From: Sedimenticola sp. | GTDB taxonomy: Bacteria > Pseudomonadota > Gammaproteobacteria > Chromatiales > Chromatiaceae | NCBI GenBank assembly: GCA_027083925.1 | Contig: JALWMK010000141.1 | Span: 1-38,152, forward strand | Direction of reading: 5' to 3' | DNA: 38,152 bases | Part shown: piece after piece, positions 4,537-14,388 of the stretch | Layout: each line of letters begins with the position of its first letter | Numbering within the stretch: position 1 is the first letter of the stretch | The notes under the pieces: model-generated | Databases searched by the model: none | Seen by the model: the letters and a program-made list of their open reading frames with translations, nothing else | Told to the model about the DNA's origin: nothing | Position numbers and translations under genes: made by a program

Positions 4537-5847
4537 ATGATGTTTTCTCCGCAGAAGTTGTTGCACAAACTGCAAACGCTTCCCGTTCCGGAACAATACT
4601 GGGTGGCATTCAGTGGCGGGATGGATTCCACAACGCTGCTTTATGGCCTGTCGCAAATACGCGCACAACTGCCAGCGCCCTTGCAAGCTGTCCACATCAA
4701 CCACGGCCTGCAGGACAAAGCGCTGGAATGGGAGAAGTTCTGTCGGGAGACCTGCGCCAGGCTGGATATTCCGTTGACCAGTCTGCAACTGAACCTCAGG
4801 CCTGCATCGGGAGAAAGCCTGGAAGCTCAAGCCAGGGATGCCCGCTACGCCGCCATCGCCGCGCACATGAATGCCGGGGACATGCTGCTTACCGCGCACC
4901 ATGGGGACGATCAGGTAGAAACCCTTTTGTTACAACTGCTGCGTGGGGCCGGTGTTTCCGGCTTGGCATCCATGCCTCTGATGCGGCACTGGCAGGCAGG
5001 CTGGCTGGTGCGCCCATTGCTGGAATTCAGCCATGAAGAACTGCAGGACTGGGCGCAGCAGGAACATTTGCAGTGGCAGGACGATCCCAGTAACGATCAT
5101 CTGGGCATCCGCAGAAACTACCTTCGCCACAAAGTCATCCCCCTCCTGAAGAATCAATGGCCCGGGCTTATCAAAACCACCAGTCGCTCAGCGCGTCATT
5201 GCGCCGAAGCCGCACAGTTGATGAAAGAGGTGGGAATGGCGGATCTGGTTCTGATGTATGACGCCGGCCGGCCCTGGCAACTGTTGATTTCCGGACTGGA
5301 GGTGCTTTCACCACAAAGAAAAAAAAACCTGCTGCGGCACTGGGTTCGCCACCAGGGTCTTCCGCTGCCAGGGCATCAGATAATAGAGCGCATTCTCACA
5401 GAAGTCGTAGGGGCACGCCAGGCAGGCAGCCCCCTGCTAAGCTGGGAGAATGGCGAGATACGGCGTTTCCGTAATACCCTCTACCTGATGCCGCCGTTGC
5501 CGCCTGCACCAGCTGATGGCTTGCGCCTGCAATGGGATTGCAGCAAGCCCCTCGATCTTCCCCAAGGCCTGGGGCGGTTGTCAGTGACAGATAAGACGCA
5601 ATGGCTGGCGGACGGTGTGGAAGTGGTATTCCGCACCGAGGGTCTAGCATGCCGCCCCGACCAGAGGAAAAACACCCGTAGCTTCAAGCGCCTTTGCCAG
5701 GATTTGGCTATCCCTCCCTGGCTGCGCCCACGCCTGCCGCTGGTATATGGCGCCGATGGTCTGATCGCAGTAGCGGACTACTGCCTATGCCAGCCTGAGC
5801 TGGGAAAGAACCCGTTTGTCTGGGAAAGACCCGAGTGGCTGCGTTGA
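4537..5847 (+). CDS. tilS: tRNA(Ile)-lysidine synthase
   Basis: Converts C34 of the CAU-anticodon tRNA-Ile to lysidine using ATP and lysine, so that AUA is read as isoleucine. The ATP-pyrophosphatase P-loop SGGMDSTTLL is at about residues 26-35, followed by HINHGLQ and LLTAHHGDDQVETLLLQLLRG, the typical N-terminal synthase core. The TilS-specific substrate-binding and C-terminal domains follow, with KNTRSFKRLCQDLAIPPWLR near the end. Start choices are GTG at 4528 and ATG at 4537 or 4540; I prefer 4537, with low certainty between them. It follows accA by about 80 bases. No clear terminator is visible between its stop codon and the repeat element at 5881. Confidence 0.95.
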   Translation: MMFSPQKLLHKLQTLPVPEQYWVAFSGGMDSTTLLYGLSQIRAQLPAPLQAVHINHGLQDKALEWEKFCRETCARLDIPLTSLQLNLRPASGESLEAQARDARYAAIAAHMNAGDMLLTAHHGDDQVETLLLQLLRGAGVSGLASMPLMRHWQAGWLVRPLLEFSHEELQDWAQQEHLQWQDDPSNDHLGIRRNYLRHKVIPLLKNQWPGLIKTTSRSARHCAEAAQLMKEVGMADLVLMYDAGRPWQLLISGLEVLSPQRKKNLLRHWVRHQGLPLPGHQIIERILTEVVGARQAGSPLLSWENGEIRRFRNTLYLMPPLPPAPADGLRLQWDCSKPLDLPQGLGRLSVTDKTQWLADGVEVVFRTEGLACRPDQRKNTRSFKRLCQDLAIPPWLRPRLPLVYGADGLIAVADYCLCQPELGKNPFVWERPEWLR

Positions 5848-5880
5848 CATGGAAGTATCATCGGACAACACAACAAGCTT

Positions 5881-6129
5881 AAGAGTCCCTCTATTAATTC
5901 ATGATTGGCGTCTGCGCATGGGGGCAGCGACAACTTCGTCGCCTGCAGGGAGGCAGGTGAGGGGTGTACGCCGGGAGCGGAAGCGTTGAAAATCTGGCCA
6001 ATCGCCTGCTACAAGGTGAATTGCGCTTGCGCAAGAGAAGCTGCCCTGGGGCATTTGCTGCGATCTTCGCCTTGTTCTCACTGTCCTCATGCACGAATCT
6101 GCTCAAACAGAATCAATAGAGAACCCCTA
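5881..6129 (+). mobile_element. MITE-like element, copy A (degenerate ends)
   Basis: First of three copies of a short non-coding element found within 6 kb. It shares near-identical internal sequence with the copies at 9330-9549 and 11514-11763, for example the stretches around TTCGTCGCCTGCAGGGAGG and CATTTGCTGCGATCTTCGCC. The ends carry the conserved inverted core CTCTATTRATTC but the outermost bases have drifted from the GAGGGCACCTC seen in the other copies, so this copy is probably older. It contains the 10-base palindrome CTTGCGCAAG at 6026-6035. No transposase gene is present, so it would need a helper enzyme. It fills the gap between tilS and the PqiA-like gene. Confidence 0.75.
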
Positions 6130-6152
6130 AGCCCAATATCAGAAAGAGTACG

Positions 6153-6710
6153 GTGAAGGTATTGAAACAAAAACACAATCAACAGTTTCACCAGCGTTCC
6201 CAAGGCATGTCCGTCTCAGGCTTTCGCAACAGCTATGCCGCCCGGCATCCATTGACCGGTGTATTGATCAATCTTTTGCTGTTGCTTGCAGCGGCACTGT
6301 TGGCGTTGGGCCTGAAGCTGCCCCTGGTCAGTGTGGAAAAGTTCTATTTTTTTGGTAATACGGTGAGCTTGTTGTCTGCCATCAGCCAGCTCTGGCAGGG
6401 ACAGGAAAAGAGTCTAGCGATCCTTCTGCTTGGTTTCAGCGTGGTATTTCCGGTGATCAAGCTGCTGTTGCTGCTTCTTGTGTGGAACCTGGAGGACAGC
6501 AACAGCAGCCGCCACCAGCGTCATCTTGCCTGGTTGGCCACCTACAGCAAATGGTCCATGCTGGACGTGTTCGTGGTCGCCCTGCTGGTAGTTACGGTCA
6601 AGCTCGGCGCCCTGGCCCAGGCGCAAGTGGAGTTTGGCCTGTATGCCTTCGCTGCCAGCGTCATTCTGACCATGCTCGTCTCGGCCTGGATCGGGCGCTA
6701 TACGGCCTGA
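6153..6710 (+). CDS. Paraquat-inducible protein A (PqiA)-family membrane protein
   Basis: Inner-membrane protein of the PqiA family. Larger PqiA/YebS proteins work with MCE-domain partners in lipid transport between membranes. This protein is about 185 residues, a single PqiA domain. Four hydrophobic segments are visible, with the family signature SKWSMLDVFVVALLV near residue 131. It lacks the N-terminal cysteine pairs of E. coli PqiA and no MCE-domain partner is nearby, so its role is open. The start may be GTG at 6153, with AGAAAGAG upstream, or ATG at 6207, which gives MSVSGFRNSYAARHP. It starts about 24 bases after repeat copy A and converges on the LTA-synthase-family gene with a 7-base gap. 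Confidence 0.85.
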   Translation: MKVLKQKHNQQFHQRSQGMSVSGFRNSYAARHPLTGVLINLLLLLAAALLALGLKLPLVSVEKFYFFGNTVSLLSAISQLWQGQEKSLAILLLGFSVVFPVIKLLLLLLVWNLEDSNSSRHQRHLAWLATYSKWSMLDVFVVALLVVTVKLGALAQAQVEFGLYAFAASVILTMLVSAWIGRYTA

Positions 6711-8797: not shown

Positions 8798-8803
8798 ATT
8801 ATA
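8798..8803 (-). promoter_or_regulatory. Possible -10 element for the LTA-synthase-family gene
   Basis: On the minus strand the bases read TATAAT exactly, 37 bases upstream of the preferred ATG at 8760. No good -35 hexamer is seen 16-18 bases further upstream, so this is a weak call. Confidence 0.3.
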
Positions 8804-8838
8804 GCGGATTGAAGCTGCTGTTTCCTTGGTTCCGATGA

Positions 8839-9121
8839 ATGTACAATTGTATTCAGGTGCATCCCAGTCGATTGGGATGCCGGGTAGTCGAATTGAATGT
8901 GCAGCCAGATCACATGCATCTGCTGGTGAAGGTGCCGCCAAAAATCCCGATATCGAAGTCGCTTGGTGTGGTGAAAGGAAAAACCGCATTGCGGAAATCA
9001 TGTCTGGGCAAAAGGTTACTGCGTTGATGCCGTAGGAATAGACGCTGAGATGATACGGACGTATGTAAAATATCAGGGGAAGCAGGAACAATGCCAAGTT
9101 CAAATGGACTTGGGCAAGTAA
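8839..9121 (+). pseudogene. IS200/IS605-family transposase (TnpA, Y1 type) remnant
   Basis: Decayed Y1-family HUH transposase of the IS200/IS605 type. The first part reads CRVVELNVQPDHMHLLVKVPP followed by a conserved serine and KGKTALR, including the His-x-His metal-binding motif (HMH). After 9000 the similarity continues in a different frame as NHVWAKGYCVDAVGIDAE and then IRTYVKYQGKQEQ, with the catalytic-tyrosine region, ending at TAA 9119-9121. The N-terminal third is missing and roughly 16 residues between KGKTALR and NHVWAKG are lost with a frame change, so no functional protein is made. It lies just upstream of the LTA-synthase-family gene on the opposite strand and next to repeat copy B. 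Confidence 0.8.
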
Positions 9122-9145
9122 TTGATGAAAGGGGACAGCTTGCCA

Positions 9146-9168
9146 GCCAGCCTTCTCGGAAGGCTGGC
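9146..9168 (+). repeat. Perfect hairpin 25 bases after the transposase remnant
   Basis: GCCAGCCTTC and GAAGGCTGGC form a perfect 10-bp stem around a 3-base loop. A second small stem (GCCCC/GGGGC) follows at about 9174-9190. IS200/IS605 elements carry subterminal hairpins recognised by TnpA, so this is a candidate right-end hairpin of the decayed element. A role as a transcription terminator is less likely because no T-run follows. Confidence 0.5.
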
Positions 9169-9201
9169 ATCAAAGCCCCTTATAGGGGGCAAAAAGCAAG
9201 C

Positions 9202-9226
9202 CTGCGCTCTTAGAACGCAGATTTTT
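9202..9226 (+). terminator. Possible weak intrinsic terminator
   Basis: CTGCG at 9202 pairs with CGCAG ending at 9220, with TCT/AGA able to extend the stem past one mismatch, followed by A and five Ts. It could end transcription entering from the transposase remnant. The stretch 9227-9329 shows nothing else I can identify. Confidence 0.35.
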
Positions 9227-9329
9227 ACTGATTTTGCCTTTATTCAATACGACGACCAGAGCGAACACTGATAACGGCTTTCGCTGCTGAAATTAGCTGA
9301 GTGTGACCTTTTTGACGGTTCTTCATGTA

Positions 9330-9549
9330 GAGGGCACCTCTATTCATTCATGATTGGCATCTACGCACATGAGGGCGGCGATAACTTCGTCGCCTGCAGG
9401 GAGGCAGGTGAGGGGCGTAAGCGGAGAGCGAAAGCTTTGAAAATCTGGCAAATCGCCTAGCTGTCCTGGGGCATTTGCTGCGATCTTCGCCTTGTTCTCA
9501 CTGTCCTCATGCACGAATCTGCTCAAACAGAATTGATAGAGGCGCCCTC
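9330..9549 (+). mobile_element. MITE-like element, copy B (left border of cassette)
   Basis: A 220-bp element with clear terminal inverted repeats: GAGGGCACCTCTAT at the left and the complement of ATAGAGGCGCCCTC at the right. It is the same element as 5881-6129 but lacks 31 internal bases, including the CTTGCGCAAG palindrome. It encodes no transposase. No convincing target-site duplication is visible at its borders. Its right end lies 14 bases before the start codon of the Crp/Fnr-type gene, so it forms the upstream border and possibly the leader of the cassette. Confidence 0.85.
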
Positions 9550-9563
9550 AAGAATATGGTTCA

Positions 9564-10157
9564 ATGAAATATTACAGAAAAATGATCGAACACTTTGTTC
9601 CTGTCACTGATAAAGAGTGGGCAGATGCCATTAAAATATTCAGAGAAGTACAGGTAAAAAAAGGGACGCTCATTCATCGATCGGGTGAAATATTCAGCGA
9701 TATATGGTTTGTTGAAAACGGATTGGCCAGATCCTATTTTACTGACATTAATGGTAGAGATTTTACATGGCAACTCTATTTTCGTGGTAAAAGCAAGCAT
9801 GGGTTAAACCATTTCATGGATGATAGCGTCAGCTTCTATGAACAAGAGGCATCTATGCTAAATTTTGAGATACTGGAGGATTCGGTTTTTTATGTCGCGT
9901 CCCTGGATGACCTGGATAAATTTATATCACAAGACAAAAAATGGGAGCATCTGGCGCGTCTTTGGTTGCATGACACTTACTTTGCGGCAACATACAAGCG
10001 TGTGATTTCTCTGATGTCCGAAACTGTGGCGGAGAAATATGAACGCTTACTTGAGGAGTACCCATCCATTTTCGATCATGTCAAGTCCTATCATATTGCC
10101 TCCTATCTGGGCATTGCCCCCCAGACCCTCAGTAAATTAAAAAATGAATCCAGGTGA
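9564..10157 (+). CDS. Crp/Fnr-family transcriptional regulator (cassette gene 1)
   Basis: A 197-residue regulator with a cyclic-nucleotide-binding-like beta-barrel in the first ~110 residues (VQVKKGTLIHRSGEIFSDIW, then FVENGLARSYF). A short C-terminal helix-turn-helix reads HIASYLGIAPQTLSKLKNE. The compact recognition helix and lack of an Fe-S cysteine set resemble the Crp/Fnr subgroup common in Bacteroidetes, so the ligand cannot be predicted. The start may be ATG 9564 or ATG 9582 (MIEHFVPV). No good ribosome binding site precedes either, because the repeat ends at 9549, so the native leader may have been lost. Base composition is much more AT-rich than in flanking genes. It probably regulates the two genes that follow. 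Confidence 0.85.
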   Translation: MKYYRKMIEHFVPVTDKEWADAIKIFREVQVKKGTLIHRSGEIFSDIWFVENGLARSYFTDINGRDFTWQLYFRGKSKHGLNHFMDDSVSFYEQEASMLNFEILEDSVFYVASLDDLDKFISQDKKWEHLARLWLHDTYFAATYKRVISLMSETVAEKYERLLEEYPSIFDHVKSYHIASYLGIAPQTLSKLKNESR

Positions 10158-10212
10158 ATGAAAGTCAATTCTTCATTGCATATAATTTCCATTTATTAAT
10201 GGAGACAATCAA

Positions 10213-10992
10213 ATGAATACTTTTCAAGAATTCAAAGACTTGCATGGTCAGAGTGACCCTCTTTATATCGGTAATGTGTGGGATGCCAATAGTGCGTTCC
10301 TATTTGAAAAGATGGGGTATAAGTCAATAGGTACCTCAAGTGCAGTAATTGCCGCATCCTTGGGCTATGAAGATGGCGAAGAGATGAGTTTTAACGAACT
10401 TCTGAATGTCGTTTTGACTATCACGTCAAGAACATCGTTGCCCTTGACCGTTGACTTGGAAGCAGGTTATAGCAGAGATGATAAAGAAGTTTTGAAAAAT
10501 ATCATACAGCTATATGAATTAGGTGTTGTGGGAATAAATTTGGAAGATTCCGTCGTCGAGAAGGGCAATAGGCGCATCGTCGATGCAGCAGAGTTTAGTG
10601 AAACCATAAGGTTTCTAAAGAATGGTTTTCTTAAAAAAGGAATCAGCATTTTCCTCAATGTAAGAACGGATCTTATTATGATGGGGATAGATAACCCATT
10701 GAAAGAAACGGTCGAACGAGCAACTCTTTATGAAAGGAGTGGTGCTGATGGAATATTTGTTCCATGCGTAACCGATGAAAGTGATATTCGAAAAATAGTA
10801 GACTCCATATCCCTTCCCGTCAATGTTATGGCTATGCCCAATTTGCCTGCGTTTTCGACATTGCAAGCACTTGGCGTTAAAAGAGTCAGTATGGGACCCT
10901 ATTTCTATCACTGTATGAATGAGTGGTTTTGCCGCATGGTCGAGTCTGTCAACGAACATCAATCGTTTTCTCCTGTTTTTTCAAAGCAATGA
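10213..10992 (+). CDS. Isocitrate lyase/PEP mutase-family protein (cassette gene 2)
   Basis: A 259-residue TIM-barrel enzyme of the isocitrate lyase/phosphoenolpyruvate mutase superfamily, which breaks or forms C-C or C-P bonds in small 2-oxo or phosphoryl acids. Landmarks are NVWDANSAFLFEKMGY near residue 21, the metal-site segment LPLTVDLEAGYSRDD near residue 76, and VVGINLEDSV near residue 105. The region where isocitrate lyases carry KKCGH is not recognisable, so true isocitrate lyase is unlikely; the substrate is unknown. ATG 10213 has GGAG upstream. Its stop overlaps the next start codon (ATGA at 10989-10992), which implies translational coupling. It is AT-rich like its cassette neighbours: 23 of the 60 bases at 10201-10260 are G or C. 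Confidence 0.87.
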   Translation: MNTFQEFKDLHGQSDPLYIGNVWDANSAFLFEKMGYKSIGTSSAVIAASLGYEDGEEMSFNELLNVVLTITSRTSLPLTVDLEAGYSRDDKEVLKNIIQLYELGVVGINLEDSVVEKGNRRIVDAAEFSETIRFLKNGFLKKGISIFLNVRTDLIMMGIDNPLKETVERATLYERSGADGIFVPCVTDESDIRKIVDSISLPVNVMAMPNLPAFSTLQALGVKRVSMGPYFYHCMNEWFCRMVESVNEHQSFSPVFSKQ

Positions 10993-11555
10993 GTAGCATT
11001 CATATTCAATATCAGAAAACTAAAATTGGTGAGATTATTATGGGATCTTTCAATAACAGGCTCTGTTTGCTTGATTTCAGGTATAGAAAAATGCGTTCAC
11101 GTATTGATAGCAGAGTAAAGAAAGGACTCATGGCGGAGTATGTTGAAAAAGATGATAATGTTCTTTCGAAGGCAAGAGCGCAGCTTGAAGAATATATCAA
11201 TGGGAACAGGGCAGCATTTACGATTCCGCTACAAATGGTTGGCAGTGACTTTCAAAAAATGGTATGGAGGTCTTTACTGAAAGTCCCTTACGGCGCTACC
11301 TCAACTTATTTACAAATTGCCAGGGATATTAACAATGAAAAAGCTGTTCGTGCTGTTGCTAACGCCAATGGAGCAAACTGTATTGGTGTAATCATACCTT
11401 GCCACCGCATCATTGGGTCTGATGGAAGTCTTGTCGGTTATGCTGGAGGCTTATCTGTTAAAAAGAGATTATTGAAACTGGAAAGAGAGTATGACTCTTT
11501 CAGTTCTAAAATAAGGGCACCTCTATTCATTCTGTTTGAGCAGATTCGTGCATGA
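10989..11555 (+). CDS. ogt: Methylated-DNA--protein-cysteine methyltransferase (cassette gene 3), C-terminus altered by repeat
   Basis: Suicide repair protein that takes an alkyl group from O6-alkylguanine onto its own cysteine. The active-site motif IPCHRIIGSDGSLVGYAGGL is intact near residues 142-161, and the helix-turn-helix region VPYGATSTYLQIARDI is also present. I start it at ATG 10989 (MSSIHIQYQKTK), which overlaps the previous stop. The open frame begins upstream at 10923, but that part lies inside the preceding gene. The last 13-14 residues (about RAPLFILFEQIRA) and the stop codon come from repeat copy C, which begins at 11514. The conserved domain ends before this, so the protein may still work. 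The symbol reflects the family; equally it could be called a stand-alone Ada C-terminal domain. Confidence 0.87.
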   Translation: MSSIHIQYQKTKIGEIIMGSFNNRLCLLDFRYRKMRSRIDSRVKKGLMAEYVEKDDNVLSKARAQLEEYINGNRAAFTIPLQMVGSDFQKMVWRSLLKVPYGATSTYLQIARDINNEKAVRAVANANGANCIGVIIPCHRIIGSDGSLVGYAGGLSVKKRLLKLEREYDSFSSKIRAPLFILFEQIRA

Positions 11556-11763
11556 GGGCAGTGAGAACAAGGCGAAGATCGCAGCAAATGCCCCAGGGCA
11601 GCTTCTCTTGCGCAAGCGCAATTCACCTTGTAGCAGGCGATTTGCAAGATTTTCAAAGCTTCCGCTCCCAGCTTACGCCCCTCACCTACCTCCCTGTAGG
11701 CGACGAAGTTATCGCTGCCCTGATGTGCGTAGATGCCAATCATGAATTGATGGAGGTGCCCTC
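11514..11763 (-). mobile_element. MITE-like element, copy C, inverted (right border of cassette)
   Basis: Same element as 5881-6129 and 9330-9549 but in reverse orientation. It has terminal inverted repeats AGGGCACCTCTAT at the left and the complement, GAGGTGCCCTC, at 11753-11763. The 250-bp length and the presence of the CTTGCGCAAG palindrome match copy A, not the internally deleted copy B. Its left end is fused in frame to the alkyltransferase gene. The remaining gap to the next gene (11764-11906) contains no feature I can identify with confidence. Confidence 0.85.
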
Positions 11764-11906
11764 GCAGGGCGCAAATTACCCCACTGTGTGCTCGCCTGCG
11801 GTATCAAGGTGCAGAATCCTCCCAGAATTCGTTTTACGGCTATGTTCAATTCCCGGCGGGGGTTGTAAACTCTCGCCCTTGAGTATTGATCCAAGGGTAA
11901 CTCCGT

Positions 11907-12482
11907 GTGGGCATGAAACAAATGGTTTTTCTGGCGCTGTTGCTTTTTGCAGCGGGCCTTTCGCATGGCGCGCCTACCGACAGGTATGAGGAGCTCACGG
12001 GCGAGCAGGATGACTTTGAGGCGAATGTAAAGGAATGGGAAGAGCGTTTTTCCGGGGTTCCACTGCTGCCGGGTGATGATGCCTGGGCATCGGTGCGGGT
12101 CGATTCCCTGCCGAAAAACCAGCGCGCTTTTCTGGATATGAGCACCCTGAGTGTTTCAGACAAGGATTATGTGGTGCGATACTGGCTGCTGATCCGCTCC
12201 ACTGCCGGCGGCTATACCGCCACGTTCGAGGGACTTCGCTGCGGAACGCAGCAGTATGCCATCTATGCGTATGGAAATCCCCGGCGCAAGCCAGCCGTGC
12301 GTGAGGTGAAGACGCCGAAATGGAAGAAAATTGGCGGCGTCAGGAGCGCGTACCGCAAGGAGTTGGCGGAAGATGTTTTTTGCACCGGGGGCGTACCGCG
12401 AGAGCGCTATCAGATAGAACAGGCAGTGAGGGGACTGTTTGAGCAGCTCAACCCTTTTGACAACTGGATCAATGATGACTAG
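11907..12482 (+). CDS. CNP1-like family exported protein
   Basis: A protein of about 190 residues with a signal peptide (MGMKQMVFLALLLFAAGLSHGAP), probably periplasmic. The body (DLPKNQ-like SLPKNQRAFLDMSTLSV, DYVVRYWLLIRSTAGGYTATFE and a conserved CGTQQYAIYAYG segment) matches my memory of the CNP1-like family (PF08750) of Beta- and Gammaproteobacteria, whose function is not known. The start is GTG 11907, with AAGGGT about 10 bases upstream, or ATG 11913. Its 3' end overlaps the parE start by 8 bases, which suggests translational coupling. Two cysteines (in LRCGTQ and VFCTGG) could form a disulfide in the periplasm. Confidence 0.75.
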   Translation: MGMKQMVFLALLLFAAGLSHGAPTDRYEELTGEQDDFEANVKEWEERFSGVPLLPGDDAWASVRVDSLPKNQRAFLDMSTLSVSDKDYVVRYWLLIRSTAGGYTATFEGLRCGTQQYAIYAYGNPRRKPAVREVKTPKWKKIGGVRSAYRKELAEDVFCTGGVPRERYQIEQAVRGLFEQLNPFDNWINDD

Positions 12483-14388
12483 CTACAATGCCTCAGCCAT
12501 AGAAGTGCTCAGTGGCCTGGAGCCGGTGCGCAAGCGCCCGGGGATGTACACGGATACCACCCGCCCCAACCATCTGGCGCAGGAAGTCATCGACAACAGC
12601 GTGGATGAGGCGCTTGCCGGGTATGCCAGCAAGATTGAGGTCAAGCTGTATAAGGACGGCTCTCTGGAGGTTGTGGATGATGGCCGGGGCATGCCGGTGG
12701 ACATTCACCCGGAAGAAGGTGTTCCCGGGGTGGAGGTCATCCTGTGCAAGCTGCATGCTGGCGGGAAATTTTCCGACAAATCCTATCGGTTTTCCGGTGG
12801 TTTGCATGGCGTGGGCGTGTCCGTGGTGAACGCCTTGTCACGGCATCTGGAGGCCTGGGTCAAGCGTGACGGCAAGGAATACAATATTGCCTTTGCCAAT
12901 GGTGAAAAGGTTTCTGATCTTGAAGTGGTGGGCAAGGTAGGCAAACAGAATACCGGCACCCGCATTCGCTTCTGGCCGGATGTGCAGTTTTTCGACAGCC
13001 CCAAATTCAGCATTCGCCAGCTCAAGCATGTATTGCGGGCCAAGGCAGTGCTTTGCCCCGGTCTGCATGTGCGCTTTACCGACGAAAAGAGCGGTGAGAA
13101 CGAAGAATGGCAGTATGCCGACGGTTTGAAAGACTATCTGATGGATGCGCTGCGGGGCTTTGAAATATTGCCCGAGTCACCTTTCGTCGGCAGTATGAGC
13201 AGCAGCAATGAAGCGGCAGATTGGGCATTGCTATGGCTTCCCGAGGGTGGTGAGCCGGTTACCGAAAGTTATGTGAACCTGATTCCCACCGCACAGGGTG
13301 GCACCCATGTAAACGGCTTGCGTACCGGACTTACCGAGGCGGTTCGTGAGTTTTGTGAATTCCGCAACCTGCTGCCCCGGGGAATGAAAATCACCCCGGA
13401 CGATGTGTGGAGCAAGGTTAACTATGTGCTTTCTGTAAAGATGGCTGATCCCCAGTTTTCCGGTCAGACCAAAGAGCGTCTGTCTTCGCGGGAATGTGCT
13501 GCCTTTGTTTCCGGTGTGGTGAAAGATGCTTTCAGCCTGTGGCTGAACCAGAACACCGCCGAGGGGGAGCGCATTGCCGATCTGGCCATTCATGCGGCTC
13601 AAACACGCATGCGGGCCGGGCGCAAGGTGGTGCGCAAGAAGGTGACCCAAGGGCCGGCGCTGCCGGGCAAGCTGGCAGATTGTGCTTCCGATGACATGAA
13701 GCGCACGGAACTTTTTCTGGTGGAAGGGGACTCCGCCGGTGGTTCCGCCAAGCAGGCCAGGGACAAGGATTTTCAGGCAATCATGCCCCTGCGCGGTAAA
13801 ATATTGAATACCTGGGAAGTGGATTCCGCCGAAGTGCTGGCCTCCCAGGAGGTACATGATATTTCCGTGGCTATTGGCGTGGAACCGGGAGCGGATGATC
13901 TTTCCAGACTGCGCTTTGGTAAAGTCTGCATACTGGCGGATGCAGACTCGGACGGTCTGCATATTGCCACTCTGCTGTGCGCGCTGTTTGTGCGTCACTT
14001 TCCCGGGCTGGTGAAAAAAGGACATGTTTATGTGGCCATGCCGCCGCTGTATCGTATTGATGTGGGGAAACAGGTGTTCTATGCCCTGGACGATGCGGAA
14101 AAGCAGGGCATACTGGCGCGCATCGAAGCTGAGCAGCTGCGGGGCAAGGTCAATGTGCAACGCTTCAAGGGGCTGGGTGAAATGAATCCCATGCAGCTGC
14201 GGGAAACCACCATCCATCCGGATACCAGAAGACTGGTGCAACTGGCTATGGAAGCAGGAGATGAAACCATGAGTATGATGGATATGTTGTTGGCCAAGAA
14301 GCGCTCGGGAGACCGCAAGGCCTGGCTGCAGGAAAAAGGGGATCTGGCGGAAGCCGCCCGGGAATTGGTCGCTGGAGTCGGGAGCTGA
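12475..14388 (+). CDS. parE: DNA topoisomerase IV subunit B
   Basis: ATPase subunit of topoisomerase IV, which decatenates replicated chromosomes together with ParC. The GHKL ATP-binding motifs are QEVIDNSVDEALAGYASK near residue 34 and DDGRGMPVDIHPEE near residue 63, with GGLHGVGVSVVNAL near residue 105. The TOPRIM domain shows FLVEGDSAGGSAKQARD near residue 413 and the metal-binding DADSDGLHI near residue 488. Total length is 637 residues, as expected. ATG 12475 gives MTSYNASAIEVL, which matches E. coli ParE; the frame is open further upstream inside the CNP1-like gene. Its TGA overlaps the start codon of the cytochrome gene in TGATG. Confidence 0.97.
   Translation: MTSYNASAIEVLSGLEPVRKRPGMYTDTTRPNHLAQEVIDNSVDEALAGYASKIEVKLYKDGSLEVVDDGRGMPVDIHPEEGVPGVEVILCKLHAGGKFSDKSYRFSGGLHGVGVSVVNALSRHLEAWVKRDGKEYNIAFANGEKVSDLEVVGKVGKQNTGTRIRFWPDVQFFDSPKFSIRQLKHVLRAKAVLCPGLHVRFTDEKSGENEEWQYADGLKDYLMDALRGFEILPESPFVGSMSSSNEAADWALLWLPEGGEPVTESYVNLIPTAQGGTHVNGLRTGLTEAVREFCEFRNLLPRGMKITPDDVWSKVNYVLSVKMADPQFSGQTKERLSSRECAAFVSGVVKDAFSLWLNQNTAEGERIADLAIHAAQTRMRAGRKVVRKKVTQGPALPGKLADCASDDMKRTELFLVEGDSAGGSAKQARDKDFQAIMPLRGKILNTWEVDSAEVLASQEVHDISVAIGVEPGADDLSRLRFGKVCILADADSDGLHIATLLCALFVRHFPGLVKKGHVYVAMPPLYRIDVGKQVFYALDDAEKQGILARIEAEQLRGKVNVQRFKGLGEMNPMQLRETTIHPDTRRLVQLAMEAGDETMSMMDMLLAKKRSGDRKAWLQEKGDLAEAARELVAGVGS

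Follow-up and report, generated by a model that had tools for sequence, protein, structure and literature searches.

Insertion of and recombination between MITE copies as the probable origin of a composite-transposon look-alike in Sedimenticola sp.

Do two inverted copies of a miniature element around three genes of deviant base composition make a composite transposon? The question is raised by a locus within the 38,152 nucleotides of Sedimenticola sp. DNA analyzed here (the window), where the core of one copy, GGGC...GCCC, occupies positions 9332 to 9547 on the forward strand and that of a second copy, inverted relative to the first, occupies positions 11515 to 11761 on the reverse strand. 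The facing arms are 91% complementary between 9330-9458 and 11635-11763 and 94% complementary between 9459-9548 and 11514-11603, which bears out the description, in an earlier note on this DNA, of an inverted pair around exactly three genes. The same note had reported a compositional shift, and the composition analysis that we ran agrees with it: G+C is 0.39-0.40 in 9501-11500 (~40%), versus 0.53-0.60 over most of both sides. As argued below, the bracketing element is a MITE, a new family member set in an ordinary rearrangement, and the bracket probably arose as a side effect of the many MITEs in this genome and does not move as a whole.

All three genes lie on the forward strand. A Crp/Fnr-like regulator of 197 amino acids (9564 to 10157), whose start lies 16 nucleotides past the left MITE core, was recognized by a cNMP-binding/Crp-like match with an E value of 4e-5, below the Pfam cut-off. 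It is followed by an enzyme of the PEP mutase/isocitrate lyase superfamily (10213 to 10992; PF13714 PEP_mutase, 227 bits); every equivalog model, prpB and PEP mutase among them, scores far below its cut-off on this protein, and we therefore leave its substrate unassigned. The third gene (10989 to 11555) encodes an Ogt-type methylated-DNA-protein-cysteine methyltransferase (MGMT; PF01035/PF02870) with 105.1 bits for PF01035 (cut-off, 27), 105.4 bits for TIGR00589 (cut-off, 46.4), and the active site PCHR within the sequence IPCHR. The regulator-enzyme-repair set named in the earlier note is thus confirmed by these domain matches. A promoter scan gave a weak hybrid match at 9533-9560, too near the start of crp to convince, and the eight promoter matches are not far above the mean of shuffled sequences (5.3; standard deviation, 2.2). 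Rfam had no match in 8800-12600, and a plasmid collection had none by blastn. Given how near the left border the operon begins, we also asked whether the genes might be an integron cassette; inspection by eye showed nothing resembling attC.

The elements at the two borders belong to a family present throughout the genome. The assembly, in which the window lies on contig C141, comprises 2.58 Mb in 176 contigs, and at least 76 MITE copies were located in it, a number taken from search outputs rather than from one whole-genome scan. A blastn search of this genome gave at least 63 matches (best 40 of 109 candidates scored), and an 18-nucleotide pattern of the MITE end matched 135 times, versus 0 for the reversed control pattern (100 of the 135 ends were among the matches listed), so that the element pair is far beyond chance. 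The copies fall into two size classes of about 158 and 250 bp, with the ends GGGCRCCTCTATTNATTC and imperfect terminal inverted repeats, positions 2-56 and 196-250 (~55 nucleotides) being complementary at about 80%. No transposase gene was found inside the copies. Of the single full-length copies with both flanks, 18/23 have an exact 4-bp target duplication, mostly TNNA, and 21/23 full-length copies have a left flank of the TNNA form. The earlier view of the ends as MITE-like holds on all these counts (short length, terminal inverted repeats, copy number, lack of a transposase, 4-bp duplications); that view had also tied the repeats to the cassette, and here the pair is real but its members belong to the genome-wide family.

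An autonomous partner with the same ends was not seen in 20 stretches of this genome and 10 of congeners, and the single-ended copies of this genome and the congeners yielded only truncated copies, copies at contig ends, and other miniature elements, with no autonomous insertion sequence; transposition of the MITE would need a transposase given in trans by another element. Related, diverged elements occur in congeners and are the nearest relatives of the family. Among these is a miniature element of ~109 bp with the ends GGGAACCTCGAATAATTC / GGGCRCCTCGAAAAATCG in congeners G005 and G009 (loci L188-L193, L195, and L197), and its ends number several dozen in G005 alone. Within the present family, four copies (L009, L015, L158, and L166) have one common left flank, TTTGGCTTAA, and therefore appear to lie inside copies of another repeat.

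How closely are the two bracketing copies related? The left one belongs to the 250-bp class but has lost about 30 nucleotides internally, and its gap-free identity with the right one is 92.7% over 219 sites, below both the 94.0% that it has with its nearest unlinked copy and the 97.6% that the right one has with its own. By these identities, each of the two copies is closer to an unlinked copy than to the other. Target duplications are absent at either MITE, singly or as a pair: the left one is flanked by TAGA (9328-9331) outside and TCAA (9548-9551) inside, and the right one by ATAA (11511-11514) inside and TCGC (11762-11765) outside. The outermost 4-mers (TAGA and TCGC) thus differ, in agreement with the earlier failure to find matching direct repeats outside the borders. 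The transcript of the right MITE is predicted to form a single long hairpin (-106.3 kcal/mol; z, -6.9). A third, degenerate copy was found by sequence match at 5888 to 6121 (forward strand), within a stretch (about 5843-6217) that G009 and G010 lack at the orthologous position. MITE pairs as close as this one occur at chance frequency: 6 neighboring pairs within 2.3 kb were observed versus 4.9 expected by random placement (P = 0.38), and ordinary genes, such as a hemC-like and a sugar-nucleotide gene (names read from the sequences), lie between the members of other close pairs.

The operon itself also exists without the MITEs. A different gammaproteobacterial MAG (L070) has all three genes, with 89.7% DNA identity over window positions 9548-11514, and the matching interval is exactly the stretch between the two MITEs. 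The Crp-like regulator is 97% identical to that of L070, and the MITE had no match in L070 or in a further homologue, L071, whether at the locus or elsewhere in the genome. Comparison with ParE exposes a conflict of identities. In congener G009, ParE is 97% identical, whereas its own trio, at another locus, is only 73, 56, and 64% identical; in the L071 genome, ParE is 73% but Crp 95% identical. This contrast rests on G009 and L071 and not on L070, in whose genome no ParE orthologue was seen (the best match, at 41%, is probably GyrB). In the Crp tree, the window protein groups with those of L070 and L071 with strong support (100/98), apart from that of the congener. Because of the identity conflict between ParE and the trio, these comparisons show an operon of foreign origin that was horizontally acquired, which supports the earlier proposal of a foreign gene set and documents a recent movement of the Crp-PEP mutase-like-MGMT operon between distantly related bacteria. 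The genes that come after the Crp-like regulator vary among L070 and L072-L092 (small membrane protein, PEP mutase-like enzyme, MGMT); MGMT is often among them and recurs in both Gammaproteobacteria and Campylobacterota.

Both insertion points of the MITEs can be read against the MITE-free homologue. L070 and L071 keep TTAAATCAAGAA 5' of crp and have TTATATTAAATCAAGAA in common upstream of it, and the window has the MITE and then only TCAAGAA, which places the left MITE at a TCAA site. At the other end, the C terminus of MGMT reads SSKINRKI-stop in L070 and SSKI followed by MITE-encoded residues in the window: the right MITE breaks the gene four codons ahead of the native stop, and the last 13 residues and the stop codon (11553-11555) come from the MITE and replace the native NRKI. 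Since the frame runs from SSKI into the MITE, the right copy entered an existing gene and operon. The earlier picture of repeats around exactly three genes therefore stands as far as the bracket is concerned and not for the third gene, inside which the right MITE begins. On a contig of a Sulfurovum MAG (L086:2487-2894), a different miniature element with the ends AGGGCACCTCTAATAATAG...TATTAGAGGTTCCC occupies the 3' end of an MGMT gene that is truncated, at a codon close to the one interrupted in the window, and its flanks (TTTA/ATAA) are also unmatched. Since an element of the same end type is found at almost the same codon, the association of element and gene could recur across phyla; we nevertheless regard it as very improbable that the 3' end of this MGMT gene is a recurrent target of related miniature elements with GGGCACCTCTA ends, which would thereby travel with the operon or help to mobilize it.

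The outer flanks come from places that are not neighbors in relatives. To the left, a 5' fragment of an IS21-type istA, named from its translation (9229 to 9332, reverse strand), is cut exactly at the MITE; it is 85% identical to a longer copy on another contig of this genome (G000:C72), which runs on beyond TAGAG, and the homology stops at the MITE edge with TAGA, a TNNA site. Farther out, positions 8845 to 9075 (forward strand), with similar DNA in G005, encode what we take, from a C-terminal motif in the translation, to be a probable IS200/REP-associated transposase fragment. To the right lies a native flank (11764 to 12482, forward strand) made of the CNP1 promoter region and the CNP1-like gene (11913-12482), after which comes parE. 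Homology with the DNA upstream of CNP1 in G009, G010, G005, and G014 begins exactly at 11762-11764, and in G010, G005, and G014, CNP1 adjoins xseB-ispA and not LTA synthase (gene names read from the sequences). The comparison with relatives for an empty site, proposed in the earlier note, thus came out against insertion of a composite unit: CNP1 has xseB-ispA as its neighbor, and istA continues in C72. As the broken istA and the CNP1 region are not neighbors in relatives, two ancestral places meet at the bracket. In this genome, xseB-ispA is found on C36 beside pepA-holC-like genes, with no MITE (names read from the sequences). About 44 bp of CNP1-xseB intergenic DNA occur twice here, with CNP1 at window positions 11764-11807 and with xseB at L138:1181-1224, and once in relatives, between both genes. 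We found none of the reciprocal products: neither the remainder of istA, nor the DNA lost upstream and downstream of the operon, nor a junction of xseB with a MITE. The lost partners would have TTATATTAAA for the operon upstream, AATAGAAAAATATAAC for the operon downstream, and GGTAGTTTTGATC for the xseB side.

We consider a history in three steps to be the probable explanation of the locus. The Crp-PEP mutase-like-MGMT operon was acquired horizontally, as the identity conflict shows. Copies of the resident high-copy MITE inserted just 5' of crp and within the last codons of MGMT, as the comparison with the MITE-free homologue shows. Finally, recombination or deletion between MITE copies would have exchanged the DNA beyond each MITE, as the recombinant flanks suggest, leaving one MITE next to the broken istA and the other next to the CNP1 promoter region. 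The order of these events is our reconstruction. Exchange or deletion between MITEs is favored because a single composite insertion does not give the meeting of two ancestral places. Counting against this explanation are the failure to find the reciprocal products, the location of xseB-ispA in this genome beside pepA-holC-like genes with no MITE and with a second copy of the ~44 bp of intergenic DNA, and the flanks of the right MITE, since neither ATAA nor TCGC is a TNNA site. Independent insertions at both sides, the alternative offered in the earlier note, come nearer to the truth than its composite, and MITE-MITE recombination has to be added to them.

The composite transposon that the earlier note had in mind would require that a transposase recognized the outer ends of the MITE pair and carried the three genes to this place together with both MITEs, as a single unit. 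The inverted arrangement, the complete outer ends, the foreign AT-rich cargo, and documented precedents in Acinetobacter and for TIME-COMP all speak for such a unit, which we nonetheless regard as improbable. The outer 4-mers differ in a family whose single copies mostly have exact 4-bp duplications, the outer flanks are not neighbors in relatives, and the two copies are only 92.7% alike; moreover, the right MITE cuts the MGMT coding sequence, a version of the operon with 90% DNA identity has no MITEs, and equally close pairs occur at chance frequency around ordinary genes. A search for the cassette elsewhere, also suggested earlier, covered 23 Crp loci, some of them short or cut by contig ends; the unit did not recur at any of them, and none has this MITE at both ends. 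About equally improbable is a version in which MITEs flanked the operon before its arrival and gave it entry through homologous recombination with copies resident in the genome; recombinant flanks at both MITEs and the description of MITEs as recombination hotspots (PMC10969869) would agree with such an entry, but the nearest homologues, L070 and L071, lack this MITE in their loci and genomes, and the nearest related elements are in congeners.

The main residual rival to insertion followed by MITE-MITE recombination is an assembly join inside the right MITE. The MITEs at the operon edges would then be real, and the outer flanks would have been attached through the repeat by the assembler. Many contigs of the MAG end inside this MITE, and mismatched flanks are what a false join is expected to give. 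The left MITE has no 77-mer in common with any other copy in the subset compared, and the left join is therefore unlikely to be false; the right MITE is identical to other copies over as many as 129 bases, so that the right join is less certain. Overall, we hold a false join to be unlikely, if somewhat less so than the two transfers of a bounded unit.

Comparison with known systems places the locus among the products of recombination. Bacterial MITEs as described in a review, which considers them hotspots for homologous recombination (PMC10969869), resemble the present family in their short length, imperfect inverted repeats (55 bp here), high copy number, 4-bp duplication, and lack of a transposase; we did not match the ends of the family or an autonomous partner to a named insertion sequence. 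In Acinetobacter, MITE pairs were reported to mobilize class 1 integrons (PMC3934969), likewise with two copies of one MITE around foreign genes; those copies are identical, lie in the same direction, and have a 5-bp duplication, whereas ours are 92.7% alike, inverted, and without a duplication. TIME-COMP elements, composites built from Tn3-derived miniature elements (PMC4133298), also enclose a foreign core of lower GC between miniature elements; however, they were captured transposing with 5-bp duplications and have identical or near-identical ends, neither of which holds for the bracket described here. The present bracket thus fails the tests of a composite and fits the recombination view. 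A very abundant MITE together with recombination can yield a convincing look-alike of a composite transposon, and the tests that separate the two are the outer target duplications, the ancestral neighbors of the flanks, and the position at which the cargo is cut relative to a MITE-free homologue.
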